Below, in pieces: positions 2,644 through 47,764 of a stretch of 64,000 nucleotides of DNA (within the stretch, counting starts at the first letter, position 1; every line of letters starts with the position of its first letter). The notes beneath the pieces were generated by a model. That model was not told where the DNA came from and did not search any database. It saw only the letters and a program-made list of their open reading frames with translations. Source of the DNA: Mucilaginibacter dorajii (GTDB taxonomy: Bacteria > Bacteroidota > Bacteroidia > Sphingobacteriales > Sphingobacteriaceae); NCBI RefSeq assembly GCF_024808255.1, contig NZ_JANTYS010000026.1:1-64000 (forward strand), read 5' to 3'. The position numbers and the translations under genes are program-made.

Positions 2644-2736
2644 GAAGCAAAGAATCAAGGCGAAACTGGCTAAGCAATGCCTGTTATTATATTAAAATAC
2701 TTTTTTTTAAAAAATTCGATTTCAACCCGTAAGATC

Positions 2737-30140: not shown

Positions 30141-32102
30141 TTATTCTATTTTTAATACTTTAAATTCTGTACGTCTGTTTAGCTGGCGGCCTTCGGGGTT
30201 ATCCTTGCCGTTTGGTAATGAGTTTGGCGCTATAGGCTGGCGTTTGCCATACCCTTTAGCGTAAATCCTGCTCTCCTCAATACCACTGGCTATAATATAA
30301 TCCACGCATGCCTGCGCACGGGCCTGTGATAGCCTCAGGTTGTATTTATCAGATCCTATTGAATCTGTGTGCGCGCTCAGCTCAACTTTTATTTTAGGAT
30401 TGTCCTTCAATATGGTTACCAGTTCATTCAGCACTATTTTTGATTCGGGCCGTAAGGTTGCCTTGTTAAAATCGTAAAGCACGTTTTTGATCACAATGGG
30501 CTTATCAACCACAAAGGCCTGCAGGCATATATCAGGGTTGTTTAGGGTATCGCCACTCATTTGGTCGTTGGCAGGCACAGGCAATACCTTGCTAAAATAA
30601 CCTTGTTTTTCAAGGTTGATCTGGTACGGCCGTTTGGTGGTTACCGCAAAAGCGTAACGTGCGGTATTGTCTGTCACGATGCTTTTGATAACCTGCCTGG
30701 TTAACGAATCAATAAAGCTCACTTTAACACCGGGCAGCGGCTTGTGTGTATCGCAATCTATCACAAGGCCACTCAGGATATGCCTTTTATCTTTTATCTC
30801 GAACAGGTTCAAACAGCAATCAGATTCGCGGTCGCTGCTGATGTAGAATTTGTTGCTATCGTCATGATCCGGCAGGTAATACAGATCATCTTTGGCCGAG
30901 TTCATAGGATAACCCAGGTTTTTCGGCTCGCTCCAGCTACCGTTATCATCCCAACTATCAAAAAAGTCAAATCCACCCAAACCAATAAAGCCTTTCGAAC
31001 TATAAATGAGCCGCTTATTAGTCATATCATAGTATGGTGCCTGCTCATCCATCGGGGTGTTAATGGTACTGCCAAGGTTGGTAGAGTTAACGGCATCGCC
31101 GCTATCGTCTAAATCGCTCATCCAAATATCATCGCCACCCTGGCCGCCGGGTTTGTTTGATGTAAAATACAAACGCTTGCCATCGGCAGTAATAAATGGC
31201 TGTATGGAGTTAAAACCATCGGCATTTATATTAGTCCCCATTTTTTTAGGGGTGCCCCATTCGCCATTGGCAAGCTGACTGTAATAAATGCCGTGTAAAA
31301 CTTTGCTGCCGTCTTTATACCAGCGGGTAAAGTACAGGCGTTGTCCATCAGCGCTAATGGCCGGGGTACCATATTCCAGGTCGCTCTTGCCGTCGTCGTT
31401 TTTAAAACTGATAGCCACAGGTTCTGTAGGCTTATCCTTTGTAACTAAATATACCCTGTTCAGGTGTTTTCTTTCGTTTTTAAGAAACCGCGATGAAGTA
31501 AAATACTGGTTTCCATCCCGCTGTATCAGCGCATAATCCGATCCGTCTGAATAATAAACACCATCCATCTTCTTCACCTCTATCAACAATGGATACTGGT
31601 ACTGCTCTTTTGCAAAGCGGCAGTTTTTGATCTCCCGTTGCGCCATCAGCTTATATTTTTCTTCGCCGGTAAACGTTTGATTAAATTGTTCAAGCTGGGT
31701 AATAGCCTCATCAAAGTGCTGGTTGGCCCGCATGCACACGCCATACCAAAGCCTGGCCAGCGGATATTGCGCTTCATAATTCTCGTTAATTACGTTGTAA
31801 TACCAACCCTCGGCCTCCAGGTAGTTTTCATATAAGCGGTATGAGTCGGCCAGCTGATAGCAGATATATGCCCTATCTGTTGATTTCGCGCTTTTATCGA
31901 CCTTGCCGGTAGCGTGATATGGGATAGCCTGCTTTTTAATGAGGCTTAAACCTTCGGCAGCCTGTTTGTAATAAAAGGCCGCCTCATAGTAATCTTTGTT
32001 ATTAAAAGCTTTGTCGCCAAACGCGCGCGGATTAGCCTTATACTGGGCTTCTACAGTAACAATGGATACGAGCAGGAGTATGGTAAAAAATATCTTCTTC
32101 AT
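30141..32102 (-). CDS. PorE-like OmpA-family protein (TPR, PD40 propeller, CRD, OmpA)
   Basis: A 653-residue periplasmic protein that would link the outer membrane to peptidoglycan. Domains in order: signal peptide 'MKKIFFTILLLVSIVTVEA'; TPR-like helices (about 25-180, 'NNKDYYEAAFYYKQA'); PD40 propeller repeats (about 215-430, 'AISADGQRLYFTRW', 'FITADGKRLYFTSNKPGG'); a carboxypeptidase-regulatory-like domain (about 440-525, 'GLVIDCDTHKPLPGVKVSF'); and OmpA C-terminal (about 540-650, 'DFNKATLRPESK', 'LSAHTDSIGSDKYNLRLSQ'). This is the layout of PorE (PG1058) of the Porphyromonas T9SS. It follows porP/sprF by 12 bp in the operon with the giant T9SS cargo, implying a secretion or anchoring function for it. 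Confidence 0.88.
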   Translation of the reverse strand: MKKIFFTILLLVSIVTVEAQYKANPRAFGDKAFNNKDYYEAAFYYKQAAEGLSLIKKQAIPYHATGKVDKSAKSTDRAYICYQLADSYRLYENYLEAEGWYYNVINENYEAQYPLARLWYGVCMRANQHFDEAITQLEQFNQTFTGEEKYKLMAQREIKNCRFAKEQYQYPLLIEVKKMDGVYYSDGSDYALIQRDGNQYFTSSRFLKNERKHLNRVYLVTKDKPTEPVAISFKNDDGKSDLEYGTPAISADGQRLYFTRWYKDGSKVLHGIYYSQLANGEWGTPKKMGTNINADGFNSIQPFITADGKRLYFTSNKPGGQGGDDIWMSDLDDSGDAVNSTNLGSTINTPMDEQAPYYDMTNKRLIYSSKGFIGLGGFDFFDSWDDNGSWSEPKNLGYPMNSAKDDLYYLPDHDDSNKFYISSDRESDCCLNLFEIKDKRHILSGLVIDCDTHKPLPGVKVSFIDSLTRQVIKSIVTDNTARYAFAVTTKRPYQINLEKQGYFSKVLPVPANDQMSGDTLNNPDICLQAFVVDKPIVIKNVLYDFNKATLRPESKIVLNELVTILKDNPKIKVELSAHTDSIGSDKYNLRLSQARAQACVDYIIASGIEESRIYAKGYGKRQPIAPNSLPNGKDNPEGRQLNRRTEFKVLKIE

Positions 32103-32114
32103 GGATTGGTAGAT

Positions 32115-33116
32115 TTATAACCTTGGACAAACAGGCTCTGGTTCCTGGATCCGTTTGCGGAAAACGTAGCTGATAGACAATTCTAAACCGCCCTGGCTTG
32201 ATGTTGCCTTGCTTAATGACGATGTATTGAAATCATAACTTGCACCAATGATCATGCTATTTACATGATACCCGATATTTGCAATTGCCGCATCCTGAAA
32301 GCGGTACATGCCGCCAAAAATCAACCCTTTGTCATCCTGCATTTTTAGCTCGGCATACGCGCCAATTGCTTTTTCCTGGGCTTTTTGCTGGCGCATGTAA
32401 ATGGCGTGTGGTATCACATCAAAAAGTTCAGATGCTTTTATCCGCACCCCGCCATGCACGGTGTAACGTAATGGCAACTTGCTTTGGCTGCCATCAACCG
32501 CGAATGGATCTTTGGAGCGGGCCAGGTGTCCTACACTTACTCCCCCGAATAAGTTGGCATTATGCAGTGGATCACCGTCATAATAAAAGACACCCGCGCC
32601 CGCGTCAAAGATCGTGGCATTCGTATTTAAAAAGTTCTCGTTGCTTGGTAAAGTGGGGTCAAAACCGCTGTTGGGGTTATACTGGCTACCAAACTGGGCC
32701 TTGGATGGATCAAAGCTGCGGTTAATAACACCAGCGTTAATACCAAAACTTATTTTTTTATAACCGTCATTTGATACTGCAATGGCATATCCAAAAGTAC
32801 CGTAAGCCGCAAAATAATTGTAGCCCACGTCGCCCGCTGCCTGGTTCAACACGTTAAAGCCTACGCCTACTTTGTCGGTAGGGCGATAGTCTAACGAAAG
32901 ACCTTCGGTTTGGTAGGCGTTATTAATAGTTGCGTATTGGTTTTTAAAGTTGGCATTAACCCGTAAATCGCCATTGATAACTCCTGTTAAAGCAGGGTTA
33001 AGATATATGGGATAAGCATAGTACTGAGAAAAGTGCGGGTCAATCTGGGCCTGTAAGCGGCTGATGAGCCCCAATTGAAGCGCCGCAGCCATCATGATCA
33101 TGAGTAGTTTTTTCAT
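32115..33116 (-). CDS. PorP/SprF family T9SS outer-membrane protein
   Basis: A 333-residue outer-membrane beta-barrel of the PorP/SprF family. The signal peptide is 'MKKLLMIMMAAALQLGLIS'. 'QIDPHFSQYYAYPIYLNPAL' is the N-terminal signature of the family. Alternating amphipathic strands follow, ending 'GGLELSISYVFRKR'. SprF-like proteins are needed to secrete or attach partner proteins that carry a type B C-terminal domain, such as SprB of Flavobacterium. The gene directly upstream encodes such a protein, and the gene 12 bp downstream a PorE-like anchor, so this is probably its dedicated partner. A perfect hairpin in the 64-bp spacer separates it from the cargo gene. Confidence 0.92.
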   Translation of the reverse strand: MKKLLMIMMAAALQLGLISRLQAQIDPHFSQYYAYPIYLNPALTGVINGDLRVNANFKNQYATINNAYQTEGLSLDYRPTDKVGVGFNVLNQAAGDVGYNYFAAYGTFGYAIAVSNDGYKKISFGINAGVINRSFDPSKAQFGSQYNPNSGFDPTLPSNENFLNTNATIFDAGAGVFYYDGDPLHNANLFGGVSVGHLARSKDPFAVDGSQSKLPLRYTVHGGVRIKASELFDVIPHAIYMRQQKAQEKAIGAYAELKMQDDKGLIFGGMYRFQDAAIANIGYHVNSMIIGASYDFNTSSLSKATSSQGGLELSISYVFRKRIQEPEPVCPRL

Positions 33117-33180: not shown

Positions 33181-36100
33181 TTATCTTAACAGTGTTACAG
33201 TTCCCTTCATTTTTATTGGCTGCCCATCGGTTGTTAAGCCGGTTAGGTAGTAAACATATACCCCAACAGGCTGGGCATGCCCTTTATAAGTGCCATCCCA
33301 TCCGGCCGATTTATTGGTGGTGCGGAACTGCAGTTCGCCCCATTGATCGTAAATAGATAAGGTTAAACTTTGAATGGTATTACCAAACACCTGCAGTAAA
33401 TCATTATTACCATCTCCGTTCGGCGTAAACACATTTGGTACAAAAATTCCGTTACCGAATGGATTGTTGGTAGTAGCGGTAACAACAGCCGAGTTAGCAC
33501 CCAAACCGCATGGCCCGGTTGCCCGCACAATGATGGTTACAGTTTGATTGGCGCTTAAACCGCTTACTTCATGTGTTGTACCGGCACTGCCAGAACTTGG
33601 CGCTATAAAGGTTGCACCATTATCAAGGCTTACTTCATAACCGGTAGCACCGGGCACCGCGCCCCACGTAAAGGTTATAACACTTGTACTGGTATTACTT
33701 GCACTTACAACCGGCGCGGTTAATGCAGGAATAATGGTTACAGTTACCGATGTACGTGTTGCCGATGCACAGCCTCCTGTGTTGTTTACAGCCTCGGCGT
33801 AGTATGTTATGTTGTTACTAAGGCTCGGCGTAATGAAGCTTGCACCTGTAGCTAACGCGGTACCGCCTGTTGCATTGGCATACCAGTTAATAGTAGTATT
33901 AGCCGAACTTGTTGCCGATAAAGTAGCCGTTGTTCCCGGGCAGATAGCAACATTGGGCACGTTTACCTGTGGCGCGTTTGGCGCTGTTGTTACTGTTACC
34001 GTTGCACTGGTACGTGTTGGCGAAGAGCAACCTGTGCTATTAATAGCTTCGGCATAGTAAGTAGCAGAAACAGATAAAGCAGGTGTCACAAAATCGGTAC
34101 CGGTAAACAGCGGTGTGCCTCCTGCTGCATTGGCATACCAGCTATATGTAAAGCCGGCTTGCGGATTGGATATACTCAAGGTAGCTCGCGAGCCCTGGCA
34201 ATCAGTAACGGCGTTGTTGACCAACACAGGTGCACCAGGCGCGCTGTTAACATTTACCTGCACCGTGGCCAGCGACGAACTACTGCACGAGCCATTTGCA
34301 GCCTCTACATAAAAGGTAGTATTCGCATTAATTGGCCCTGTTACATAAGTAGCCCCGGTGAATAGTTTGGTTGTTTTTGCTGCCGATGAATACCAGTTAT
34401 AAGTTAATGCAGCCTGTGGCGATGATACCGAAAGTGTAGCCGTACTGCCTTTACAAACAGCCACGGTTGCTGCTGTTGGCACAGGTGTACCTGGCTGTGG
34501 TACTATTGTAACATTTACAGCCAGCCTTGCCGATGGTTTGCAATTTTGCCCGTCGGTTGCCTCAACGTAGTAAGTTGTGTTTTGGGTGATGGCAGGCGTT
34601 ACAAAGCTTGTACCGGTATAAACAGAATTGCCACCTGTTGCCACTGTATAGAAATTATACGTAGTGCCGGCCACAGGATTTGTTATGCTGATGGTAGCCA
34701 CACTATTTTGGCAAACGCTTAAGCCAGCGGCATCAACTGTTGGTGTTGGCGCGGTAGTATTATTAATGGTAATCTGCACCGCAGTACGGGTTGATGATGC
34801 GCAACCACCCGCCGTAGTCACAGCCTCTACATAATAAGTAGTTGTGGCCGATATTGGAGGTGTAACATACGTTGCCCCTGTAAATACCGGTGTGCCACCC
34901 TGGGCAACGGTATACCAGTTAAAGGTAACGCCTTGCGTAACACTTGTAGCAGTAAGCGTGGCTGAGTTACCAGAACAAACTGATGGTGTTGCCGAACCGC
35001 CCTGCGCTGTTACTACCGGAGCAACAGGTAACGCGTTTACATGCACATCAACCTGAGTGCGGCTTGATGAACTACAACCGGTGCTGTTTACTGCATCTGC
35101 ATAGTATGAAATATCTGCCGATAAATTAGCAGTGGTAAAGCTTGTACCGGTAAATATTGGTGTGCCACCTGTAGCTGCTGAATACCAGTTGTAGGTAAAG
35201 CCTGCTGTTGGATTATCAATACTTAAGGTAGCTTTTGAACCTACACAGGTTTGTACAGGTGCACCACCCGCAACAACAGGTGCCGATGGTGGTGGTATGA
35301 TATTTACCCTCACCTGTGCCAGGTTACTGCTGTTACAGCCCGAAGTATTTGCTGTCGATACATAGAAGTTAGTACTGGTTGATATCGGCCCGGTAATATA
35401 AGTGCTGCCGGTAAATAACACAGTGGTCATAGCAGGCGAATCATACCAGGTGTAGGTAATACCTGCCTGTGGTGATGCCACAGATAAGGTAGCGCTTGCA
35501 CCCGCGCATACAGGCACTGTTGATGCTGTAACTGTAGGATCTGCTGGTAACGGGTTTAAAGTAACCTTAACAGGTGTACGGGCCGATGGGTTACAGTTGC
35601 CTGCACTTGCTGCCTCAACGTAGTAAGTTGTTGTAGCGGTAATTGCAGGCGTTGTAAATTGTGTACCGGTAAATAACAGTGTACCTCCCGTTGCAAAATT
35701 GTACCAACGGTAAACCTGGTCGGCTTGTGGATTGGTTATGCTGATGGTAATGGTTGAGCCATCGCAAGCGCTTAAACCACCCGCTGGCGCGGTAACCTGT
35801 GGCGGCGTTGGTATTGGCAGAACGGTGATATCAGTTTTTGCGCGTGTGCTGCTCACACAACCACTGCTATTTGCAGCTTCAACAAAATAGCTAATGTTGG
35901 CCAGCAAATTATTGGCAGTAAATGTAGTTCCGGTAAATATTGGTGTGCCGCCGGTAGCAGCGGTATACCAGTTATAAACCAGGCCCGCAACAGGATTATT
36001 CACACTAACGGTTACACTGCCACCGCTACAAACCTGGGTTGTAGCGGCACTTAGTATTGGTGCGGTTAATGTACCGCTTACGGTGATATTTACCGGTGTG

Positions 36101-39100
36101 CGACCTCCGTTATTGATACAGCCTGTTGTAGTATTTGATGCCTCAACATAGTAAGTAATATTCTGGCTAATGGCAGGCGTAGTAAAAGTAGCGCCTGTAC
36201 CCGCGGCTGTTCCACCTGTTACAGCGGTATACCAGCTATAGGTAACGCCTGCTTCTGGTGTTAACACGGCCAGCACCGCTGTGCTGTTAGCACAAACCTG
36301 TACATCGGCAGCAACAACACCGGGTTTTGATGGCCTTGCATTAACCTTTACAGTACCCAGGGTACGGGCCGGGCTGGTACAGGTACCGTTGCTTATTTCT
36401 GCGTAGTAAGTTTGGGTAGTAACAGGGTTTACCGTATAGGTAGCACCTGTAAATAACAGCGTTCCATTTGTAGCCGCGTCATACCATTTAACTGTCGCGG
36501 TACCGGCATTGGTTACAGTTAAAGTGGCATTATCGCCTGCGCAGATCTCTACATTATTACTTGCCAGTACAGGATTAACAGGTGACGGTGTCACATTAGC
36601 TGTGGCGGCTACCCGGTTGGGGTTAACGCAACCATTGGCTGTGCGGCTGCTTTCTACATAATAAGTTGTAGTTGCGGCCAATGCCCCGGTAGTAAACGTA
36701 GCTCCGGTATGCACTAATGAACCACCCACAGCCGCGGTGTACCATTTATAAGTTACACTGGCGCGGGCATTGCTCACCGTGAAAGTGGCTGTGCTTCCCT
36801 GGCAAATATTATCGGTTGATGCAGCCAGTTTTGGTGCGTCAACCTGTTTGGTTGCATAATAAATGCTGGCCGAATTTAAGGCCGATAACACCCCGCCCAA
36901 CAAAGTTACTTCAACCCTGTCGTAAGTCCCTTTAGGTGCAAACCTAATGATTGCGGTTTGTGACCCTGCCAACAGGCGGATGTGCAGTAAGTTACTGCTT
37001 AAGGTGATACGGTCGTTATTATAGGTAGCGCCATTGTATGATGCTATCTGAATACCATCAAGCACCCCTGCGGTAAGCAGGCTTACAGGTAATCCTAACT
37101 TAACAGTTACGCTATCGCCGGCATTACCGGTATCGCCAAATATCAATTGCTGACTAACATTGGCCCCCAATAAACCAACAGTTAATTGAAGCTGACTGGC
37201 ATTAGTTGTATCAATATCAACAGCGTTGTTAGGCGTGCTAACAGTACAGCCCACGCATATACCGGTGGCAGTAAAGTTTTGTGTCGATGCAAAATCGCAT
37301 GAAGTTGAGAAAATTGGATTTACAGTAATGGTAACCGGCGTACGTGTTGGGCTGGTACAGCCTGTGGCTGCAAGCGTACTTTCAACATAATAAGTCATGT
37401 TTGAAGTAAGCGCCGGCGTAGTAAAGGCAGCACCGGTAAATATTGGCGAACCACCACTTGCCGCGGTATACCAGTTAAAGGTAGCGCCTGCTGTGGTTGA
37501 TGTAGCTTTAATTACAGCTGTTTGGCCAGACGAGATCTGGGCATTGGCTGGTGTTACTGTTAAAGCTGGTGCGACAGGAGTTGGGTTAACCACAACATCT
37601 GTTTTTGCCCTGGTCGAGCTAACACAACTGCCTGCGGCTGCCTCTACATAATAAGATGTATTGGCAGTAAGATTTGGGGTGGTGTATTGTGCCCCGGTAA
37701 ATATTGGCGTGCCTCCTGTAGCAGCAGTATACCAGTTAAAGGTTACGCCTGGCTGGGTAGATGAGGCCGATAATACAGCCGATGAACCTGAACAGGTTTG
37801 TACAGTAGCCTGCGCAACCTGCGGTACCAATGGCGTAGCGGTAACGTTGGCAGTTACCTGGGTACGGGTCGAACTTGTGCATGAACCCGCACCTGCGGCC
37901 TCCACAAAGTAAGATGTGGTTTGGCTTAATGCCCCGGTGGTATAGCTATTACCGGTATGTACTAATGTACCACCGGTTGCGGCTGTATACCAGTTAAAGG
38001 TAACCCCATTTACAGGCGTTGCCGCAAAGGTAGCCGGCGAGCCTGAACATATGGTAACATTGGCTGTTGCAACCACCGGAGCCGCTGGTGTAGGTGTTAC
38101 GGTAACGGTTACCGGTGTGCGGGTAACCTGGGTACAGCCGTCTGCTGTTCTGCTGGCTTCTGCATAATAAGTAGTAGTAGCATTTAAAACCGGTGTATTA
38201 AATGTTGCCCCGGTAAATACAGGATTGCCGCCGGTTGCTGTAGTATACCATTTTACGGTAACGTAGCTTGGGACAGTAGCAGTCAGCGTAGTTTGTGTTC
38301 CGGCGCATGCAGTTACTGCGTTGGCGGTAATTACCGGTGCCGCTACTTCCTGTGCGGCGTCATAAATATTCAGGGCGTTCAAAACACCTGCAACACCAGA
38401 GTTTAGGCGAACCTCAACCCGGTCAAAATCTGCAGCGGCTTTAAATGTCACCCTAAAACGGCTTGTTCCGCTCAGCAGTTGTATGCTTATTAATGAGCCA
38501 TTCAATGCAAAACGATCATTATTATAAGTGGCTCCATTATAAGTAGCCAGGCTAATCTGCGATAGCACACCCACACTGGCCAACGCTCCTGGGATACCAA
38601 GATCAACCACTACGGTGTCGCCTGCCCTGCCTGTGTTGGCAAAGCGTAAGGTTTGTTGTGAGTACCCACCTAATAAACCTACCGGGGCGCTCAATTGCGC
38701 GAAGGTGTTACTGTTGGCATCAACAGAACCTGTTGCATTATTGATACCGCAAAGCACGCAAAGTAAACCACTGGTAGTATTGGTTTGATCGATGGCGGCG
38801 TCGCAAGGTACAGGGTTATTGCTGATGGCATTGATGGTTACACTGCCAGATGCCCTGGTGGCCGATTTTGAGCCTGTGGCGCTAACAACCGCCTCGGCAT
38901 AATAAGTAGTTGCCGCAAATAATGGCGGCGATGTAAAGGTAGCACCGGTATAAATGCTGGTACCGCCTGTTGCTGTGGTGTACCAGTTAAATATAGTACC
39001 GGGAGTTGTTGATGATGCAGTTAATGTGGCCGATGTACCCGCGTTTATAGCTTGTGTTGGCGGTGCAACTGCTACGTCTGGTATTACCAGTGGCGTAACG

Positions 39101-42100
39101 GTTACTGGTACAACGGTCCTGTCTGGCGATACACAATTACCTAAAACAGATTCGGCGTAATAGGTTGTATTGGCCGATAAAGCCGGTGTGGTAAAAGTAC
39201 TGCCTGTAAATACAGCAGTTCCGCCTGTTGGCTGTGTATACCATTTAATGATGGCGTTGGTTGCTGCCGTAGCTTTAAAGGTAGCTGTTTGCCCTGTGTT
39301 GATGCTGGCGCTGGGAGGGATTACCGTTGGCTTAGCCGGTGGATCATCAACTGTAACAACTACCGCGTAACGTGTTGGGCTTACGCAGGTACCGCGGCTA
39401 TACTCTACATAATAAGTGGTATTTGCATTTAAATTTGGTGTAGTATACGTAGTACCGGTATGTAATGACGCGCCTCCTGTTGGGGTAGCATACCAGTTAA
39501 ATGCTCCGTTTGCAGGTGATGGTGCAGTAATAGAAACTACTGCAGGGCTGCCTTTACATACCTCGGTTGATGCCGGGTTAAATACCGGTTTTGGATATTG
39601 CTGTAATGCATAGTAAACCTGCAATGAGGTAAGCAAATTAGCGATACCAGAGTTAAGCCTGATCCGTAGCCTGTCATACGCCGCAGTTGCAGGGATCAGC
39701 ACTACGTAACGATTGGTGCCGCTTAGCAACCTTACAGTGATCAGGTTATTATCCAGCGTTAGCGTGCTGCCAACGGTAGCACCATTTAACAGCGATACCT
39801 GGATGGCACTCAGTACGCCCACATCGGCCAAACCAACCGGACTTTGTAATACCAGCCTGATGGTATCGCCGGCAAAACCCGCCTGTTGAAACTGCACCGT
39901 TTGTTCGCTATAGCCACCCAATAACCCTGCAGTTACAGTTAAAGTTGATGCGGTAGTTGTATCTGCATCTGTTGCCAATACAGGATTGGTGATACCACAT
40001 AATACACACACACCATTTACATCATTAGTTTGTTGGTTAGCAAATGAGCATGGCGCGTTGTTATTGATGGTAACATTAATAGTGATAGGTGTCCTGGCTG
40101 CCGATTGGCAACCTGCCGCGTTCACCGCCGCTACGTAATAGGTAGTGCTACTGTATAACAAAGGTGTAGTATAAGGAGTACCCGTAAACACCGGGGTGGC
40201 TGCTGCTGCCGAAGTATACCAGTTGTAGGTAATGCCTGTTTGTGCATTGGTTACCGAAATAGTTGCGTTTTGGCCTGCAGCTATTGTCAAATTATTAGCA
40301 GCTAAAACCGGGTTAGCGGGTTTAGGGCTTACGGTTACAGTAGCCTGCGCCCTGCTTGCGCTGGTGCAACCGGTTATGTTCACCGCTTCGGCATAATAAT
40401 TTGTATTAGCGTGTAAAGCAGGCGTAGTAAAGTTTACACCGGTAGATAGTACAGTACCACCTGTTGAGGTGCTGTACCAGTTATACGTTTGACCGGCAAC
40501 CGGGTTAGCTATTGATAATATGGCTACATCTCCATCGCAAATGGTTGTGGTTGGGATAGCTATTGTTGGTGTTGCAGGCAACGGGCTAACCGTTGCGGTT
40601 ACTTTAGTCCTTGTCGCACTTACGCAGCTTCCGCCTGCTACAGCCTCAGCATAAAGGCTGGTAGTATTAGTTAATGCGGCTGTTGTATAGTTGTTTCCGG
40701 TAAATATCGGGGTACCACCGGTTGGGGTAGCATACCAGCTTACCGTAACACCCGCAACTGCAGTTGCATTGAAAGTAGCTGTTGAACCCGGGCACACAGT
40801 TGCGTTAGCGTTGGCAACCACCGGAGCTGCCGGCGTTGTAGTTACAGTAACAGTTACCGGTGTGCGGGTGCCCTGGGTACAACCATCAGATGTTCTGCTG
40901 GCCTCCGCGTAATAAGTTGTAGTAGCATTTAAAACTGGTGTATTAAATGTAGTACCGGTGAATACTGGTGTGCCACCTGTTGCTGTAGTATACCATTTTA
41001 CAGTAACGTAATTTGGTACCGTTGCTGTTAGTGTAGTTTGTGTTCCGGCGCAGGTAGCTACAGCATTTGCACTGATCACCGGCGCTGCAACTTCCTGCGC
41101 GGCATCATAAATATTTAAAGCGTTTAAAACGCCGGCTACGCCAGAGTTTAACCTGATCTCTACCCTGTCAAAATCGGCAGTGGCTTTAAAGGCTACACGG
41201 AAAAGACTTGTGCCACTCAATAAACGGATACTCAGTAATCCGCCATTCACACTAAATCTATCGTTATTATAAGTAGCGCCATTATAAGTAGCCAGACTAA
41301 TTTGCGATAGCACACCTACACTGGCCAGGCTTCCGGGAATCCCAAGGTCAACAATCACGCTGTCGCCAACATGAGCCACATTAGCAAATTGAAGTGTCTG
41401 TTGTGAATAGCCGCCCAATAAACCTACCGGGGTACTTAATTGCGAGAAGGTATTGCTGTTGGCGTCAATAGCACCGCCTGCATTGCCGATACCGCAAAGT
41501 ACACACAGCAAGCCGCTGGTGGTATTGGTTTGGGCGATGGCCGCATCGCAAGGTACCGGATTATTGCTGATAGCATTCACCGTAACGCTGCCTGATGCCC
41601 TGGTTGCTGATTTTGTACCAGTTGCGGTAACAACAGCCTCGGCATAATAAGTAGTGTTGCTGAATATCGCCGGAGAAGTAAATGTTGCCCCGGTAAATAT
41701 ACTTGTACCCCCTGTTGGCGTAGTATACCAGTTAAATATAGTACCAGGTGTTGTTGATGACGCAGTTAAAGTGGCCGATGTACCCGCGTTTACAGCTTGG
41801 GTTGGCGGCGTTACGGTCACATTCGGAATCACTACCGGAATCACGGTTACCGTTACCACGGTTCTATCCGGCGATACGCAGTTGCCCAAAACCGCTTCGG
41901 CGTAATAGGTTGTATTGGCATTTAATACAGGTGTGGTGAAAGTGCTGCCTGTAAACACCACTGTACCGCCGGTTGCTTGTGTATACCAATTAATGGTGGC
42001 ATTGGTGGCAGCTGTAGCTTTAAATGTAGTTGTTTGCCCACTGTTGATAGTTGCACTGGTTGGTGTAACCACCGGTTTTGCCGGCGGATCATCAACCGTA

Positions 42101-44892
42101 ACCGCAACCGCGTAACGGGTTGGGCTTACGCAGGTGCCACGGCTATATTCTACATAATAAGTGGTATTGGCATTTAAGGCAGGTGTGGTGTAAGTGGTGC
42201 CGGTATGTAATGATGCGCCACTTGTTGGTGTAGCATACCAGTTAAACGTACCGTTTGCAGGTGACGGCGAAGTGATGGCTACGGTAGCCGGGCTGCCCTT
42301 ACAAACTTCTGTTGATGCGGGGTTAAATATTGGCTTTGGATATTGCTGTACAGCGTAATATACCTGTAACGAAGTCAACAAATTAGCGATGCCGGAGCTA
42401 AGCCTGATCTGTAGTCTGTCGTAAGCCGCAGTCGCCGGGATTAAAACAACATAACGGTTAGTACCGCTTAACAATCTTACCGTGATCAGGTTATTATCCA
42501 ATGTATAAGTATTAGCCACGGTAGCGCCGTTTAACAACGATACCTGGATAGCGCTCAGCACGCCAACATCGGCCAAACCAACGGGGCTTTGTAATACCAG
42601 TTTGATGGTATCTTTTGCAAAACCTGCCTGCTGGAACTGAATTGTTTGTTCACTATAGCCGCCCAATAAACCGGCAGTTACGGTTAAAGTTGACGCCGTT
42701 GTTGTATCAGCATCGGTCGCCAGCAATGGATTGGTAATACCGCATAGCACGCAAACACCGTTTACATCATTGGTTTGCTGATTAGCAAACGTACAAGGCG
42801 CGTTATTGTTGATGGTAACGTTAATGGTGATGGCTGTCCTGGCAGCAGATTGGCAACCAGCGGCGTTTACAGCCGCTACATAATAGGTGGTAGTGCTATA
42901 TAATAATGGTGTGATATAAGGATTACCTGTAAATACCGGGGTAGCAGCTGCGGCGGAGGTATACCAGTTATAGGTATTACCCGCCTGGCTATTGGTAACA
43001 GAAATAGTGGCGCTTTGACCGGCTACCACCGTTGAATTATTAGCACTTAAAACCGGGTTGGCCGGTTTAGGGCTTACGGTTACGGTGGCCAGTGCCCTGC
43101 TTGCGCTAATACAACCAGTTACGTTAACTGCTTCGGCATAATAATTTGTGTTGGCATGTAAGGCAGGTGTGGTAAAGTTTACGCCGGTAGCTAATATGGT
43201 GCCACCACTGGAAGCACTGTACCAGTTATAAGTTTGGCCGGCAACCGGGCTGGCTATGGATAAAATAGCTACATCGCCATCGCAGATAGTTACTGTTGGT
43301 GTGGTAATAGTCGGTGCTGCAGGCAGCGGACTAACCGTTGCTGTAACTTTTGTCCTTGTCGGGCTAACGCAGGTACCACCTGCCACAGCCTCGGCATAAA
43401 GATCGGTTGTAGTAGTTAAAGCAGCAGTTGTATAGCTGTTGCCGGTAAATAGTGGGGGACCGCCGGTTGGGGCGGCATACCAGCTTACGGTTACCCCTGT
43501 AACTGCCGCAGCACTAAAAGTAGCTGTTGAACCCGGACATACCGTTGCTGTAGCATTGGCTATAACCGGGGCGGCAGGAATCTGGCTAACGGTAACCACC
43601 ACAGGTGCCCGTTCAGACTCATTAGTACAGCCTATACGGCTTGCGCCTACATAATAAGTTGTGGTTGTACTTAATGCAGGTGTTGTAAAGGTGGCCCCCG
43701 CACCGGCAATTGGCGAACCGCCTGTCGCGGTGGTATACCATGCAAATGTGGTGTTTGTTACCGGGGTTACACTAAAGGTTACGGTACTGCCCGCACAAAC
43801 GGAAGCGCTGTTGGTTACAACAGTGCCAATTTTTACAATCGGACGAGGGATAAGCTTTTCTGCCTCGTATAAATTTAAGGTGGATAATACGTTGGCTACT
43901 AAACTCCCAAGTCTTAGCTGTACCCTGTCAAATAATTTGGCGGGCGCGTAGGTTACAACAACTTTACTAAGGTTTGAGCCAATACTTAATATACCAAGCA
44001 ACTGTACGTGCAGCAGGTTGCTATTTAAAAATACGGCATCGTTATTACTGGTATTGCCATTAAAGGTTAATAAAGATATACTCGACAATACATCAGCATT
44101 TAATAAACTTGTAGGTACTGCTAATGTTAATCTTACAGAATCGCCTAAAACCGAGGTTTGATTAAAGATGATGGTCTGTTGTGCATAAGCCCCCAATACA
44201 TTTACACCCGCATTTAAGGTTGATGCGGTATTGATATTACCATCGATAGCGTTTTGCGGGTTTGCAACACCGCCTATATCTACTCCTAAATTTAAAAGCC
44301 CTGCCGAAATACCGTGCAGTTCATCAAAAGCGGCACTACATGAGGCAACGCTGTTATCGTTATAATAGGCATCATATACATATATACTGCTTAAGGCGCT
44401 TAAAAGCCCGCCATTAAGTGTAACCCTAACCCTGTCATAAACCTGGCCGGGGGTTATGATAACCTCGTATTGATTGTTATTGCTTACCGCGGTAAGTAAA
44501 GTAGCCAAAGTAACCGGGCTACCAATAGCCGAGCCTCCGTTATAAGCCTGTATGGTAACTGCGCCAAGCAAAGTTAAATCAACCAGGTTATCGCCTGTAC
44601 CCAGTTTTATGGTTACAGGTGTACCGGCGGCAACCTTTGCCGATCCGGGAAATATCAGCTCCTGGTAGGTTTGTGCTAATACACCAAGCGTTAAATTTAA
44701 GGTAGATGACGTTTGCAGATTTCCGTCAACCGCGTTGCCGGGGTTGGTTACAACGCACGCGGCACAAAGTAAACCGGGCGTGCTGCTTACCTGCGTAGTT
44801 GCAAAATGATGCTGACCAAATATTTTACTTGAAGAAAATAATAGCAGACATAAAATTTTTATGTACCTGCTAAAGAGAGTAGAAGTTCTCAT
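33181..44892 (-). CDS. giant Ig_7-repeat surface protein with T9SS type B sorting domain
   Basis: A 3903-residue predicted surface adhesin or filament. It starts with a signal peptide ('YIKILCLLLFSSSKIFG'). Then come about 30 Ig_7-like modules of ~80 residues, each with a 'WYT.ATGGTP.FTG' core and a 'TTYYVEA' strand. Seven ~150-residue jelly-roll-like modules ('A.DANSNT.SQL', 'YDRVEVRL') interrupt them. The C-terminal part is an FN3-like domain ('GATGYEVSLDNG') and a gliding-motility/CHU_C type B domain ('NVFTPNGDGNNDLLQVFG', 'YDQWGELQF', 'WDGTYKG', 'PVGVYVYYL'). Type B proteins are secreted through T9SS with PorP/SprF partners, and one follows in the operon. Part of the gene (about 38,080-43,570) is a tandem duplication. 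The function is inferred: adhesion or gliding, as for SprB. The ligand is unknown. Confidence 0.9.
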   Translation of the reverse strand: MRTSTLFSRYIKILCLLLFSSSKIFGQHHFATTQVSSTPGLLCAACVVTNPGNAVDGNLQTSSTLNLTLGVLAQTYQELIFPGSAKVAAGTPVTIKLGTGDNLVDLTLLGAVTIQAYNGGSAIGSPVTLATLLTAVSNNNQYEVIITPGQVYDRVRVTLNGGLLSALSSIYVYDAYYNDNSVASCSAAFDELHGISAGLLNLGVDIGGVANPQNAIDGNINTASTLNAGVNVLGAYAQQTIIFNQTSVLGDSVRLTLAVPTSLLNADVLSSISLLTFNGNTSNNDAVFLNSNLLHVQLLGILSIGSNLSKVVVTYAPAKLFDRVQLRLGSLVANVLSTLNLYEAEKLIPRPIVKIGTVVTNSASVCAGSTVTFSVTPVTNTTFAWYTTATGGSPIAGAGATFTTPALSTTTTYYVGASRIGCTNESERAPVVVTVSQIPAAPVIANATATVCPGSTATFSAAAVTGVTVSWYAAPTGGPPLFTGNSYTTAALTTTTDLYAEAVAGGTCVSPTRTKVTATVSPLPAAPTITTPTVTICDGDVAILSIASPVAGQTYNWYSASSGGTILATGVNFTTPALHANTNYYAEAVNVTGCISASRALATVTVSPKPANPVLSANNSTVVAGQSATISVTNSQAGNTYNWYTSAAAATPVFTGNPYITPLLYSTTTYYVAAVNAAGCQSAARTAITINVTINNNAPCTFANQQTNDVNGVCVLCGITNPLLATDADTTTASTLTVTAGLLGGYSEQTIQFQQAGFAKDTIKLVLQSPVGLADVGVLSAIQVSLLNGATVANTYTLDNNLITVRLLSGTNRYVVLIPATAAYDRLQIRLSSGIANLLTSLQVYYAVQQYPKPIFNPASTEVCKGSPATVAITSPSPANGTFNWYATPTSGASLHTGTTYTTPALNANTTYYVEYSRGTCVSPTRYAVAVTVDDPPAKPVVTPTSATINSGQTTTFKATAATNATINWYTQATGGTVVFTGSTFTTPVLNANTTYYAEAVLGNCVSPDRTVVTVTVIPVVIPNVTVTPPTQAVNAGTSATLTASSTTPGTIFNWYTTPTGGTSIFTGATFTSPAIFSNTTYYAEAVVTATGTKSATRASGSVTVNAISNNPVPCDAAIAQTNTTSGLLCVLCGIGNAGGAIDANSNTFSQLSTPVGLLGGYSQQTLQFANVAHVGDSVIVDLGIPGSLASVGVLSQISLATYNGATYNNDRFSVNGGLLSIRLLSGTSLFRVAFKATADFDRVEIRLNSGVAGVLNALNIYDAAQEVAAPVISANAVATCAGTQTTLTATVPNYVTVKWYTTATGGTPVFTGTTFNTPVLNATTTYYAEASRTSDGCTQGTRTPVTVTVTTTPAAPVVANANATVCPGSTATFNATAVAGVTVSWYATPTGGTPIFTGNNYTTAALTNTTSLYAEAVAGGSCVSATRTKVTATVSPLPATPTIAIPTTTICDGDVAILSIANPVAGQTYNWYSTSTGGTVLSTGVNFTTPALHANTNYYAEAVNITGCTSASRAQATVTVSPKPANPVLAANNLTIAAGQNATISVTNAQTGITYNWYTSAAAATPVFTGTPYTTPLLYSSTTYYVAAVNAAGCQSAARTPITINVTINNNAPCSFANQQTNDVNGVCVLCGITNPVLATDADTTTASTLTVTAGLLGGYSEQTVQFQQAGFAGDTIRLVLQSPVGLADVGVLSAIQVSLLNGATVGSTLTLDNNLITVRLLSGTNRYVVLIPATAAYDRLRIRLNSGIANLLTSLQVYYALQQYPKPVFNPASTEVCKGSPAVVSITAPSPANGAFNWYATPTGGASLHTGTTYTTPNLNANTTYYVEYSRGTCVSPTRYAVVVTVDDPPAKPTVIPPSASINTGQTATFKATAATNAIIKWYTQPTGGTAVFTGSTFTTPALSANTTYYAESVLGNCVSPDRTVVPVTVTPLVIPDVAVAPPTQAINAGTSATLTASSTTPGTIFNWYTTATGGTSIYTGATFTSPPLFAATTYYAEAVVSATGSKSATRASGSVTINAISNNPVPCDAAIDQTNTTSGLLCVLCGINNATGSVDANSNTFAQLSAPVGLLGGYSQQTLRFANTGRAGDTVVVDLGIPGALASVGVLSQISLATYNGATYNNDRFALNGSLISIQLLSGTSRFRVTFKAAADFDRVEVRLNSGVAGVLNALNIYDAAQEVAAPVITANAVTACAGTQTTLTATVPSYVTVKWYTTATGGNPVFTGATFNTPVLNATTTYYAEASRTADGCTQVTRTPVTVTVTPTPAAPVVATANVTICSGSPATFAATPVNGVTFNWYTAATGGTLVHTGNSYTTGALSQTTSYFVEAAGAGSCTSSTRTQVTANVTATPLVPQVAQATVQTCSGSSAVLSASSTQPGVTFNWYTAATGGTPIFTGAQYTTPNLTANTSYYVEAAAGSCVSSTRAKTDVVVNPTPVAPALTVTPANAQISSGQTAVIKATSTTAGATFNWYTAASGGSPIFTGAAFTTPALTSNMTYYVESTLAATGCTSPTRTPVTITVNPIFSTSCDFASTQNFTATGICVGCTVSTPNNAVDIDTTNASQLQLTVGLLGANVSQQLIFGDTGNAGDSVTVKLGLPVSLLTAGVLDGIQIASYNGATYNNDRITLSSNLLHIRLLAGSQTAIIRFAPKGTYDRVEVTLLGGVLSALNSASIYYATKQVDAPKLAASTDNICQGSTATFTVSNARASVTYKWYTAAVGGSLVHTGATFTTGALAATTTYYVESSRTANGCVNPNRVAATANVTPSPVNPVLASNNVEICAGDNATLTVTNAGTATVKWYDAATNGTLLFTGATYTVNPVTTQTYYAEISNGTCTSPARTLGTVKVNARPSKPGVVAADVQVCANSTAVLAVLTPEAGVTYSWYTAVTGGTAAGTGATFTTPAISQNITYYVEASNTTTGCINNGGRTPVNITVSGTLTAPILSAATTQVCSGGSVTVSVNNPVAGLVYNWYTAATGGTPIFTGTTFTANNLLANISYFVEAANSSGCVSSTRAKTDITVLPIPTPPQVTAPAGGLSACDGSTITISITNPQADQVYRWYNFATGGTLLFTGTQFTTPAITATTTYYVEAASAGNCNPSARTPVKVTLNPLPADPTVTASTVPVCAGASATLSVASPQAGITYTWYDSPAMTTVLFTGSTYITGPISTSTNFYVSTANTSGCNSSNLAQVRVNIIPPPSAPVVAGGAPVQTCVGSKATLSIDNPTAGFTYNWYSAATGGTPIFTGTSFTTANLSADISYYADAVNSTGCSSSSRTQVDVHVNALPVAPVVTAQGGSATPSVCSGNSATLTATSVTQGVTFNWYTVAQGGTPVFTGATYVTPPISATTTYYVEAVTTAGGCASSTRTAVQITINNTTAPTPTVDAAGLSVCQNSVATISITNPVAGTTYNFYTVATGGNSVYTGTSFVTPAITQNTTYYVEATDGQNCKPSARLAVNVTIVPQPGTPVPTAATVAVCKGSTATLSVSSPQAALTYNWYSSAAKTTKLFTGATYVTGPINANTTFYVEAANGSCSSSSLATVQVNVNSAPGAPVLVNNAVTDCQGSRATLSISNPQAGFTYSWYANAAGGTPLFTGTDFVTPALSVSATYYAEAINSTGCSSPTRTSATVTVTTAPNAPQVNVPNVAICPGTTATLSATSSANTTINWYANATGGTALATGASFITPSLSNNITYYAEAVNNTGGCASATRTSVTVTIIPALTAPVVSASNTSTSVITFTWGAVPGATGYEVSLDNGATFIAPSSGSAGTTHEVSGLSANQTVTIIVRATGPCGLGANSAVVTATTNNPFGNGIFVPNVFTPNGDGNNDLLQVFGNTIQSLTLSIYDQWGELQFRTTNKSAGWDGTYKGHAQPVGVYVYYLTGLTTDGQPIKMKGTVTLLR
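36855..37305 (-). other. jelly-roll-like CxxC module 7 of the giant protein
   Basis: Most C-terminal of seven related modules (approximate limits; others near 44,360-44,815, 43,850-44,345, 42,345-42,800, 41,095-41,555, 39,600-40,055 and 38,340-38,810). Shared pattern: a start Cys, then CxxC ('ICVGCTV' here, 'VCVLCGI', 'LCVLCGI' or 'LCAACVV' elsewhere), 'A.DAD..T.S.L', 'GLLGG.SQQ..F', 'GDS', 'YNGATYNND', 'LLSGT' and 'DRVE.RL.SGV...L..L.IY'. Module 2 lacks the CxxC. The pattern resembles discoidin-type carbohydrate-binding sandwiches, but I cannot name a Pfam family. Confidence 0.6.
38080..43570 (-). repeat. tandem duplication inside the giant gene, period 2,745 bp
   Basis: Equivalent positions align exactly 2,745 bp apart: 38111/40856 (ACCGGTGTGC), 39617/42362 (ACCTG.AA.GA.GT.A) and 40736/43481 (CAGCTTAC). 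The unit encodes 915 residues: seven Ig_7-like and two jelly-roll modules. The copies differ mostly at third codon positions. The boundaries (near 38,080, 40,825 and 43,570) fall in inter-domain linkers and are approximate. Confidence 0.8.
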
Positions 44893-45184: not shown

Positions 45185-47764
45185 ATGATAACCTTTTCAC
45201 CAATATTATTTGAAATTCTTAAAGGAAGGGCGTTGGAACGCGCTGACATTAAGAGCATCACCCCCGGTGATTGTAGAGAACTTTCGGCAATGATATTTGC
45301 AGCAACAAAACTTACGGTAAGCGAGACCACCTTGAAAAGGGTATACGGCTTTGCTTTTAGTAAGTTTAAACCTTCTCTTTTTACCATTGAGGTAATGGCA
45401 AAATATTGCGGTTATGTAGGTTGGGATGATTTTTGCATAAACCAGCAAGGCCTTGCTGTAAAGGCCACCAATACCGATATAGATTGGAAAGCATTGAGCC
45501 AAAACGCAGCAAAAATTACCAATTTTACTTTACAGGCCTTAAAAAACCGGTCAGGTATTCCTTATAACCAAACTATTGAGAGAAAGTTTATCAATGATCA
45601 TTTTGATGAGTTCTTAGCCGGCGACTACACCGGAACGGTAATCATGGCACCATCGGGCTATGGAAAAACATTAGCGCTCTGTCATTGGGTAGATGAAAAA
45701 ACCGCTGTTAATGACAATAAAGATATCATACTGTTTTTTAGCAGCAGCGCGCTGATGAACGTTTTTTTAAGCGGCCGGGATTTAAATGACTGGCTACTCG
45801 CTTTGCTCGGTTACTCGTCTGATGACGATGTTGCCGCTCTGTTTGACGTCAATAAGCGGGGCGACGGCAAATTTTACTTTATTATTGATGGTTTAGACGA
45901 ACATATGTTTAAAATAGAGCAATTTCATCTTTTGCTTAACCAGCTTACTAATATCTTTTCCTTTTATCAATCACATAGCTGGTTTAAATTGATCCTAACC
46001 ATGCGTTCATCAAACTGGGTGAACAACCAACACGAATTAGATCCAGATAATGAAAAATGGTTTACCGGTTTTGTAACCGACAGCAACCTGGTTACCAATG
46101 TGCCTTTATTTACACTTAACGAAGTCAGGAATCTTTGTATTAACATCAATCCGGCCATTCAAAACTTTATGGCCATTGATATCGCCAAAGACTTTAATCA
46201 TCCGCTATACTTCCAGTTTTATTACAAGCAGCATAAAGACGATTTTACTTTTGGAATAGCAGATCACATCTGTATTCATGACCTTATCTCAACGTTTATC
46301 CTTAATAAGGTTTATCTGGGTCATTATGCTACAGAAAAAATCATCCTGTTGCGTACCCTTGTCGCCGAAATAGACTTTACAAAAGACTCCTACGATGTTG
46401 ATAAGCTAAAAGTAATTGAACTGCTTAAACAATATAACCATGCTTACACCGAATTGCTAAACATTGGTTTTTTACGGGAGATCAACATAAGCACCGACCT
46501 CATGTTTAAAACGGTTATCCAATTTGGGAACAGCAACTTTTTAGAATACACTATAGCAAAAAACTTACTTTTTGAAAACGAATCAACATTTAACCTTCAA
46601 CTGGTTCATACCATAAATGATAAATTTAATAACAACGAACATAAACTGCCCATTATAAAATGGTGTGTGATGAATGCCGTTAAAAACGGGCAACAGGAAA
46701 GCTTTGCCTTGTTGGCTTATACCCGCCTTAATCCTAAAGAAAAATCAGAATTAGTGATATTTATTGGCGAACTGCTGCTAAAAATGTCATCATCGCCCAT
46801 TTATTCAGAAAGTATTGTGAATTACTTTAAGGCGGATTGTACCGACGATCTGTTCTATTACTTTTTCGGACTTGAATACATCAATCTTGAATATAAAAAC
46901 ACACTGCTTACCCTCCTGAAGTTTGAACTGGCCAATAGTAAAAAGGCGCTTGTTTACACAGCGTTAGCAACTATATCCATATTCCAGCTTGATCTTGCAG
47001 GCATGGACGATAATCTAAAAAAGCTGAGAAGTTTCTCGCCCGAAGATTTTCAGAATTTCGACATTAACCCGTTACATTGCTTAGACGCTATTTACCAGTA
47101 TTTTAAATACGGCATCATCAAAAAAGAGTTCTTTGCCGAGTTAACCAGGTTCTATTTTAATCCTCCGAAACATAAAACCGCTATTCATACATTTAAAGGC
47201 AACGACCTTATTTACCTGCTTGCCGGTTATTCGCTATCCATAACACAAAAACCAATTAAAGTATTGAGGTTCATCAACGCCACTCAAAAAACATGCAAAA
47301 CCTGCTTAGACTCGTCGTTCACGTACCGTTTCTTCTTAAAAGCGATGGCCTCAACCGCTTATTTCTTCCTTTATAGCGAAACAGAGATGTTAAGGATGTA
47401 TGAATCCTTGGCAACCGCCTGCAAACTCAGAGAAAATTTGGCCACCCCATTTATGTATGCGTTTTTGTATGCTGTTAAAATAAAAACCGCAATTATGCTC
47501 AATGATATAGCCAGCATTAATGGCTACTTAACCCAGTTTTATCAAACGTGCGATGAATCGGGCAACAAGCTATCAAAGCTGTTTATTCACTTTGTATTGA
47601 TCAATTGCGAACAAATCAGGATCACCGATACGCAATTATACAGGCAAGTATCTTATAACCATACCAAGCTGCTGCGCGAATGCGGCCTGAGCCCCGAAAT
47701 ATTGGTAAGGCCACTGGAAGAAGAGCCAACGGTATTAAAATTGAATATCAGCACACCATATTAG
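45185..47764 (+). CDS. NACHT-like STAND ATPase with HTH-like N-terminus
   Basis: An 859-residue cytoplasmic protein. Residues ~20-85 ('TVSETTLKRVYGFAFSK', 'FTIEVMAKYCGYVGWDDF') resemble a cryptic helix-turn-helix domain found at the N-terminus of many Bacteroidota proteins. The ATPase core starts near 150: Walker A 'APSGYGKT' (155-162), Walker B 'FYFIIDGLDE' (230-239) of NACHT type, and sensor 'LILTMRSS'. The remaining ~500 residues are helical, with no clear repeat consensus, and would act as the sensor arm. STAND proteins are switches that oligomerise on ligand binding; bacterial NACHT proteins include anti-phage and regulatory members. It is divergent from the giant adhesin operon. The role is unassigned. 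A strong terminator follows. Confidence 0.75.
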   Translation: MITFSPILFEILKGRALERADIKSITPGDCRELSAMIFAATKLTVSETTLKRVYGFAFSKFKPSLFTIEVMAKYCGYVGWDDFCINQQGLAVKATNTDIDWKALSQNAAKITNFTLQALKNRSGIPYNQTIERKFINDHFDEFLAGDYTGTVIMAPSGYGKTLALCHWVDEKTAVNDNKDIILFFSSSALMNVFLSGRDLNDWLLALLGYSSDDDVAALFDVNKRGDGKFYFIIDGLDEHMFKIEQFHLLLNQLTNIFSFYQSHSWFKLILTMRSSNWVNNQHELDPDNEKWFTGFVTDSNLVTNVPLFTLNEVRNLCININPAIQNFMAIDIAKDFNHPLYFQFYYKQHKDDFTFGIADHICIHDLISTFILNKVYLGHYATEKIILLRTLVAEIDFTKDSYDVDKLKVIELLKQYNHAYTELLNIGFLREINISTDLMFKTVIQFGNSNFLEYTIAKNLLFENESTFNLQLVHTINDKFNNNEHKLPIIKWCVMNAVKNGQQESFALLAYTRLNPKEKSELVIFIGELLLKMSSSPIYSESIVNYFKADCTDDLFYYFFGLEYINLEYKNTLLTLLKFELANSKKALVYTALATISIFQLDLAGMDDNLKKLRSFSPEDFQNFDINPLHCLDAIYQYFKYGIIKKEFFAELTRFYFNPPKHKTAIHTFKGNDLIYLLAGYSLSITQKPIKVLRFINATQKTCKTCLDSSFTYRFFLKAMASTAYFFLYSETEMLRMYESLATACKLRENLATPFMYAFLYAVKIKTAIMLNDIASINGYLTQFYQTCDESGNKLSKLFIHFVLINCEQIRITDTQLYRQVSYNHTKLLRECGLSPEILVRPLEEEPTVLKLNISTPY

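Follow-up and report, generated by a model that had tools for sequence, protein, structure and literature searches.

Lectin-like jelly-roll modules of a new family on a putatively disulfide-stapled Ig_7 stalk in a giant Mucilaginibacter adhesin-like protein

The 64,000-nucleotide stretch of Mucilaginibacter dorajii DNA analysed here (the window) encodes a giant surface protein in which a cysteine-bearing module occurs seven times between arrays of Ig_7 domains. This raises the question to which fold and family the module belongs, and with what its cysteines, and those of the neighbouring Ig_7 domains, might pair.

Seven modules in a giant Ig_7 protein

The minus-strand ORF at positions 33181–44892 encodes a type IX secretion system (T9SS) adhesin-like protein of 3903 aa (Table 1). 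A Pfam scan identified 30 Ig_7 (PF19081) stretches in this protein (2195 bits, above the Pfam cut-off), and its C-terminus was assigned to the CHU_C sorting domain (Pfam) and the T9SS type B sorting domain TIGR04131 (NCBIfam), over the curated cut-off. All seven modules of the original prediction were recovered on the minus strand within this ORF. They are 153–169 aa long (about 155 aa), share 29–93% pairwise identity and have 19 columns that are invariant in 7/7. The CxxC motif is present in six modules (CAAC, four times CVLC, CVGC) and missing from the second, exactly as had been read from the sequence. The start cysteine and the GLLGG, YNG and NND motifs had been ascribed to all seven, which was too general: the cysteine is found in six and is absent from the first module, and the motifs are found mainly in M3–M7. 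M. flavus, the nearest named genome, has the same gene, with an M6 that is 93% identical.

Within positions 37315–42804, a supermodule of about 915 aa (module, three Ig_7, module, Ig_7s) is duplicated, with one copy reaching from M3 to array 3 and the other from M5 to array 5. The duplicates have 87% protein identity over the first 680 aa, with the same codon at only 55% of identical residues and third positions that are 53% identical. As judged from these values, the duplication may either be old and held by selection, or the synonymous divergence may avoid recombination.

Table 1. Features of the giant adhesin-like protein and its operon in the window; residue numbers refer to the 3903-aa protein, and all disulfides are predicted from sequence
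Feature	Position	Strand	Residues (aa)	Remarks	Predicted disulfides
Giant adhesin-like protein	33181..44892	-		Signal peptide ~1-26, 7 modules, 30 Ig_7, fn3-like domain, type B sorting domain	
Module M1	44353-44811	-	28-180	CxxC 43/46; no leading Cys; between signal peptide and M2	43-46
Module M2	43846-44352	-	181-349	Leading Cys185; no CxxC	
Ig_7 array 1	42814..43824	-	357-693	4 domains; last without C1	With M2: 185-422, 366-508, 452-594, 537-680
Module M3	42337-42804	-	697-852	Leading Cys700; CxxC 714/717	714-717
Ig_7 array 2	41572..42336	-	853-1107	3 domains; second without C1 and third without C2, jointly	With M3: 700-921, 864-1005
Module M4	41086-41559	-	1112-1269	Leading Cys1115; CxxC 1130/1133	1130-1133
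Ig_7 array 3	40069..41085	-	1270-1608	4 domains; last without C1	With M4: 1115-1338, 1281-1423, 1367-1509, 1452-1595
Module M5	39592-40059	-	1612-1767	Leading Cys1615; CxxC 1629/1632; 93% identical to M3	1629-1632
Ig_7 array 4	38827..39591	-	1768-2022	3 domains	With M5: 1615-1836, 1779-1920
Module M6	38341-38814	-	2027-2184	Leading Cys2030; CxxC 2045/2048; AlphaFold2-modelled	2045-2048
Ig_7 array 5	37315..38340	-	2185-2526	4 domains; last without C1	With M6: 2030-2253, 2196-2338, 2282-2423, 2367-2512
Module M7	36838-37308	-	2529-2685	Leading Cys2532; CxxC 2546/2549	2546-2549
Ig_7 array 6	33727..36837	-	2686-3722	12 domains; membrane-proximal stalk	With M7: 2532-2755, 2697-2838, 2784-2925, 2867-3012, 2955-3100, 3043-3186, 3129-3273, 3216-3364, 3306-3451, 3394-3536, 3480-3622, 3565-3708, 3651-3795
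Cys3795, fn3-like domain	33508..33510	-	3795	Predicted partner from the pairing rule: Cys3651 (C1, last Ig_7)	
CHU_C / T9SS type B sorting domain	33193..33444	-	3817-3900		
PorP/SprF-like outer-membrane shuttle	32115..33116	-		PF11751, E 3e-48; next operon gene, directly downstream of adhesin	
PorE-like protein	30141..32102	-		PD40 + CarboxypepD_reg-like + OmpA; predicted peptidoglycan anchor	

Fold and family of the module

AlphaFold2 prediction of M6 (116-sequence alignment) yielded a beta-sandwich jelly-roll with a pLDDT of 86.1 and a pTM of 0.84, and the model has the galactose-binding-domain-like beta-sandwich fold. Its best solved matches in Foldseek were the lectinolysin lectin domain, CBM86, the fucose-binding module of S. 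pneumoniae, and CBM32 (E 1.6e-5 to 1e-3, TM 0.45–0.56), and VIA-align superposed it on the F-type lectin domain with a Z of 10.7 and 3.0 Å over 127–128 residues. A BFVD search returned proteins of phage tails and fibres, which belong to this fold class but were uninformative on family. The module had no match to a Pfam, NCBIfam or PHROGs family and no sequence match in the PDB; when 116 diverse members were scanned singly, no curated family matched across the module, and a profile of these members had no match in the PDB. Weak matches to TREH_N, Shr-like_HID, P2_N and Kre9_KNH were partial and below the cut-off and were dismissed. The module, CxxC included, is thus spanned by no curated family in these databases, as had been surmised, and the modules are a new family, but inside a known jelly-roll fold.

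A profile of the seven modules matched homologues in other genomes with E-values down to 1e-69, so that the repeat is, by sequence comparison, far beyond chance. Homologues were present in 20 of 60 near relatives as well as in named Mucilaginibacter, Flavobacterium, and Chitinophaga, and the family was found in 30 of 296 sampled Bacteroidota genomes (15 of 139 genera). The giant genes mostly carry five, seven or nine modules, with 15 in one Chitinophaga, and the module spacing of about 415 and about 500 residues is conserved between Mucilaginibacter species. At one locus (L116) the module is combined with Big_9/cadherin-like repeats. Stand-alone proteins of 265–285 aa consist of a signal peptide, one module and a type A sorting domain, and their genes form tandem paralogous pairs (L191 368–2184, L192 345–2127).

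The original prediction had also likened the module to F5/8-type (discoidin) domains. This likeness stands at the level of the fold and, in the model, of the AxDxNxxTxS loop, whose Asp36 is conserved in nearly 100% of 440 modules; a leading cysteine at the N-terminal edge is a further feature in common with the F5/8 type C/discoidin/CBM32 group. The common fold and an AxDGNxxT loop that HHalign aligned at the same place would suit diverged members of the F5/8 type C family (PF00754/PF22633), but none of the 116 module members matched either Pfam family at E < 0.1, HHalign with PF22633 domains of the same genomes was confined to the 12 columns of the loop at a probability of 4%, and the module alignment has no C-terminal cysteine that could serve the leading one; we consider membership unlikely. 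F-type lectins/CBM47 (3le0, lectinolysin lectin domain; 2j22, S. pneumoniae; 1k12, fucose lectin) resemble the modules over the full jelly-roll (Z 9–11) and in an AxDGN-type loop, but differ in their low identity (about 16% or less), in the modules' own CxxC and in a different use of the N-terminal cysteine. In F-type lectins the AxDGN loop, with its invariant Asp, binds Ca. Ligand binding by the modules, probably of glycans, has about an even chance, given their fold and location; against it, Trp and His each make up 0.3% of residues across the 440 modules, none of which (0/440) has the His...Arg-x-Asp...Arg/Lys fucose motif of F-type lectins. The same traits, namely that the seven modules of the window protein contain no Trp and very little His and that a conserved lectin triad is lacking, together with the very regular 415/500-residue spacing across species, would fit modules that are purely structural, serving as knobs or hinges and ligand-free spacers of the stalk. 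That the closest folds are mainly glycan-binding modules, and that stand-alone single-module proteins exist, so that the module has some role even where there is no stalk, makes this reading possible but less likely.

Cysteine pairing across domain junctions

Regular Ig_7 cysteines occur at two places only, in the turn between strands A and B (C1, profile column 11) and in the loop between strands F and G (C2, column 68). In a sample of 85 proteins with 1718 domains, C1 of one domain and C2 of the next were both present in 1221 and both absent in 44 of the 1265 scored adjacent pairs, with no mismatch, compared to 220 disagreements when C1 was scored against C2 within its own domain. When the domain order was shuffled inside each protein, the mean was 220 mismatches and the minimum 195, compared to none observed. 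The last Ig_7 before a module, which has no next Ig_7, lacked C1 in 227 of 227 cases, and the 220 domains with C2 and without C1 all either closed a run or stood ahead of an Ig domain without C2 (181 + 39). The pairs with neither cysteine all derived from 25 Mucilaginibacter proteins, and since the proteins are related, independent events are far fewer than these pair counts. One relative (L117, genome G011) has two modules only, and 19 of its Ig_7 domains in a row are without cysteine; its (C1,C2) states read 11, 11, 01, followed by nineteen 00. By its sequence this is a natural unstapled stalk, in which junction-wise loss from the fourth Ig_7 on fits the pairing rule exactly. A broader Ig_7 sample, of which two loci carry the module, comprised 114 pairs that all had both cysteines (0 mismatch) and, having no pairs with neither, was non-discriminating. 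Some Flavobacterium Ig domains were missed by the Ig_7 profile.

Cysteines of the modules followed the same pattern. The leading cysteine of a module and C2 of the following Ig_7 were both present in 347 cases and both absent in nine, with a single mismatch at a truncated locus. At tandem modules, the leading cysteine of the first module was matched to an extra cysteine in column 26 of the Ig_7 that follows the two modules, in a loop at the same end as F–G (both 52, neither 26, two exceptions, each a missing column-26 cysteine). The stand-alone modules, with no Ig_7 downstream, retain the CxxC and lack the leading cysteine. Pairing of the leading cysteine with the preceding Ig array, with which a parity test was consistent in 273 of 278 cases, was dropped; the exceptions were a Chitinophaga module without a preceding cysteine and modules of Mucilaginibacter that follow a tandem pair, and pairing with the following Ig_7 was adopted because only this explains them.

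We infer that C1 of each Ig_7 faces C2 of the next and bonds it. In the window protein, this rule would pair all 70 mature cysteines in 29 junction staples and six CxxC bonds (Table 1). In agreement, AlphaFold2 of M6 with the two following Ig_7 domains (331 residues) gave a pLDDT of 92.3 and a pTM of 0.82, hence a confidently predicted domain arrangement; both Ig_7 of the model place C1 between strands A/B and C2 between F/G, and the leading cysteine lies immediately ahead of module strand 1. The two Ig_7 superpose as a unit on the cryo-EM structure of GhpA (9fls) with a Z of 12.8 and 2.6 Å over 165 residues, compared to 6–12 Å for eukaryotic tandem Igs. GhpA, the grappling hook of Aureispira (PDB 9flp–9fly, 9g8b), is a sequence homologue of the stalk (E 2e-111) that keeps the C1/C2 motifs in the aligned stretch and whose two-domain geometry agrees with that of the model, but it has no match to the module profile. 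The literature that was searched has no description of these Ig_7 junction disulfides, and the GhpA paper may contain one. The genome contains a VKOR-family gene, which is compatible with disulfide formation.

Two other accounts of these cysteines were weighed against the stapled stalk. As expected for a classical Ig disulfide, C1 and C2 are both present in 1429 of 1702 Ig_7 domains, and the Ig_7 cysteines might be ordinary intradomain disulfides, in which case the leading cysteine of a module and any odd Ig_7 cysteine would form free thiols or chance bonds. This is very improbable in view of the 220 domains with C2 and without C1, set against zero exceptions to interdomain pairing in 1265, and it would leave 12 cysteines of the window protein unpaired. 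In addition, the A–B turn and the F–G loop of an Ig fold are at opposite ends, as are C1 and C2 in the model, which renders a bond inside one Ig_7 implausible. For the CxxC, the original prediction allowed disulfides or metal binding together with the nearby cysteine, and a redox-active or metal-binding site is suggested by CxxC being the commonest such motif and by three cysteines, CxxC included, in 214 of the 440 modules. Yet C23 of the motif occurs with C26 in 251 modules and with C54, 28 positions on from C26, in 52, so that the CxxC unit is not kept when the partner changes, as it would be in thioredoxin-like or metal CxxC sites; 137 modules have none of the three cysteines, and none of these is ever solitary. 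Because C23 is always paired and its partner relocates, the CxxC behaves, by its pattern of occurrence, as a disulfide with an exchangeable partner and not as a redox or metal motif, for which we see scarcely any likelihood. The disulfide part of the earlier claim fits this, whereas one cluster or site of three cysteines is not, since C23/C26 is self-contained and the leading cysteine is independent of the CxxC and tracks the following Ig_7.

Operon context and proposed working

The order of the adhesin, PorP/SprF-like and PorE-like genes is conserved in Mucilaginibacter, Flavobacterium, and Chitinophaga. In F. johnsoniae, a cognate PorP/SprF shuttle collects type B substrates, and a type B substrate whose operon has a PorE homologue was static there, in contrast to SprB (PMC12618676). 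Type B T9SS adhesins, SprB among them, share with the window protein the sorting domain and a PorP/SprF shuttle in the operon, and the static class such as Fjoh_3952 also the PorE-like partner; SprB, in contrast, is carried by the gliding track, and the PorE-like gene predicts static anchoring here (PMC12618676). Because the operon matches the static F. johnsoniae case, a non-moving adhesin anchored to the cell wall is expected by analogy. The C-terminus of the PorP/SprF-like shuttle has a conserved single-cysteine tail (xCPRL) in Mucilaginibacter and Chitinophaga, which was absent in the Flavobacterium homologues seen; by analogy to the C-x-C tail of SprF, which bonds GldK (PMC12635249), this cysteine may link the adhesin with a further partner. 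Beside the operon lies a divergent 859-aa ORF (45185–47764, plus strand) that matches no Pfam family. Its motif APSGYGKT resembles a P-loop, and it is possibly a STAND-like NTPase.

We propose that the modules would sit as side knobs, single or paired, along a long Ig_7 stalk, in which C1 at the lower end of each domain would bond C2 at the upper end of the next, and the leading cysteine of each module would bond C2 of the next Ig_7. The CxxC pair would bond internally and steady the loop after strand 1. In the discoidin fold the N and C termini are adjacent, and each module should therefore project sideways. The PorP/SprF-like shuttle would take the adhesin from the translocon and, with its PorE-like partner, keep it on the cell wall, where the knobs displayed along the stalk would bind a surface, probably its glycans. 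The reading as a whole, lectin-like jelly-roll knobs on the disulfide-stapled Ig_7 stalk of an adhesin that is secreted by the type IX system and anchored to the cell wall, appears to us well founded and likely. We lean, with more reserve, towards a general rule in Bacteroidota by which every Ig_7–Ig_7 and module–Ig_7 junction is disulfide-locked, giving an orientation-fixed, covalently reinforced rod with new lectin-like knobs. This rule would then cover the entire Ig_7 family, which was found in 113 of 119 genomes sampled within the class.

The module family, unannotated so far, merits its own Pfam entry, and the stand-alone single-module proteins are a minimal form that is easy to express. 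Very long bacterial adhesins bear mechanical load, and Gram-positive pili have isopeptide bonds within their domains. If true, the stapling of neighbouring domains by disulfides would be a different and simple load-bearing answer, and one for which the sequence is all that has to be read. Such stapling would account for the odd cysteine counts in the widespread Ig_7 annotation, predict the relative orientation of the domains, and link adhesion to oxidative folding before export.
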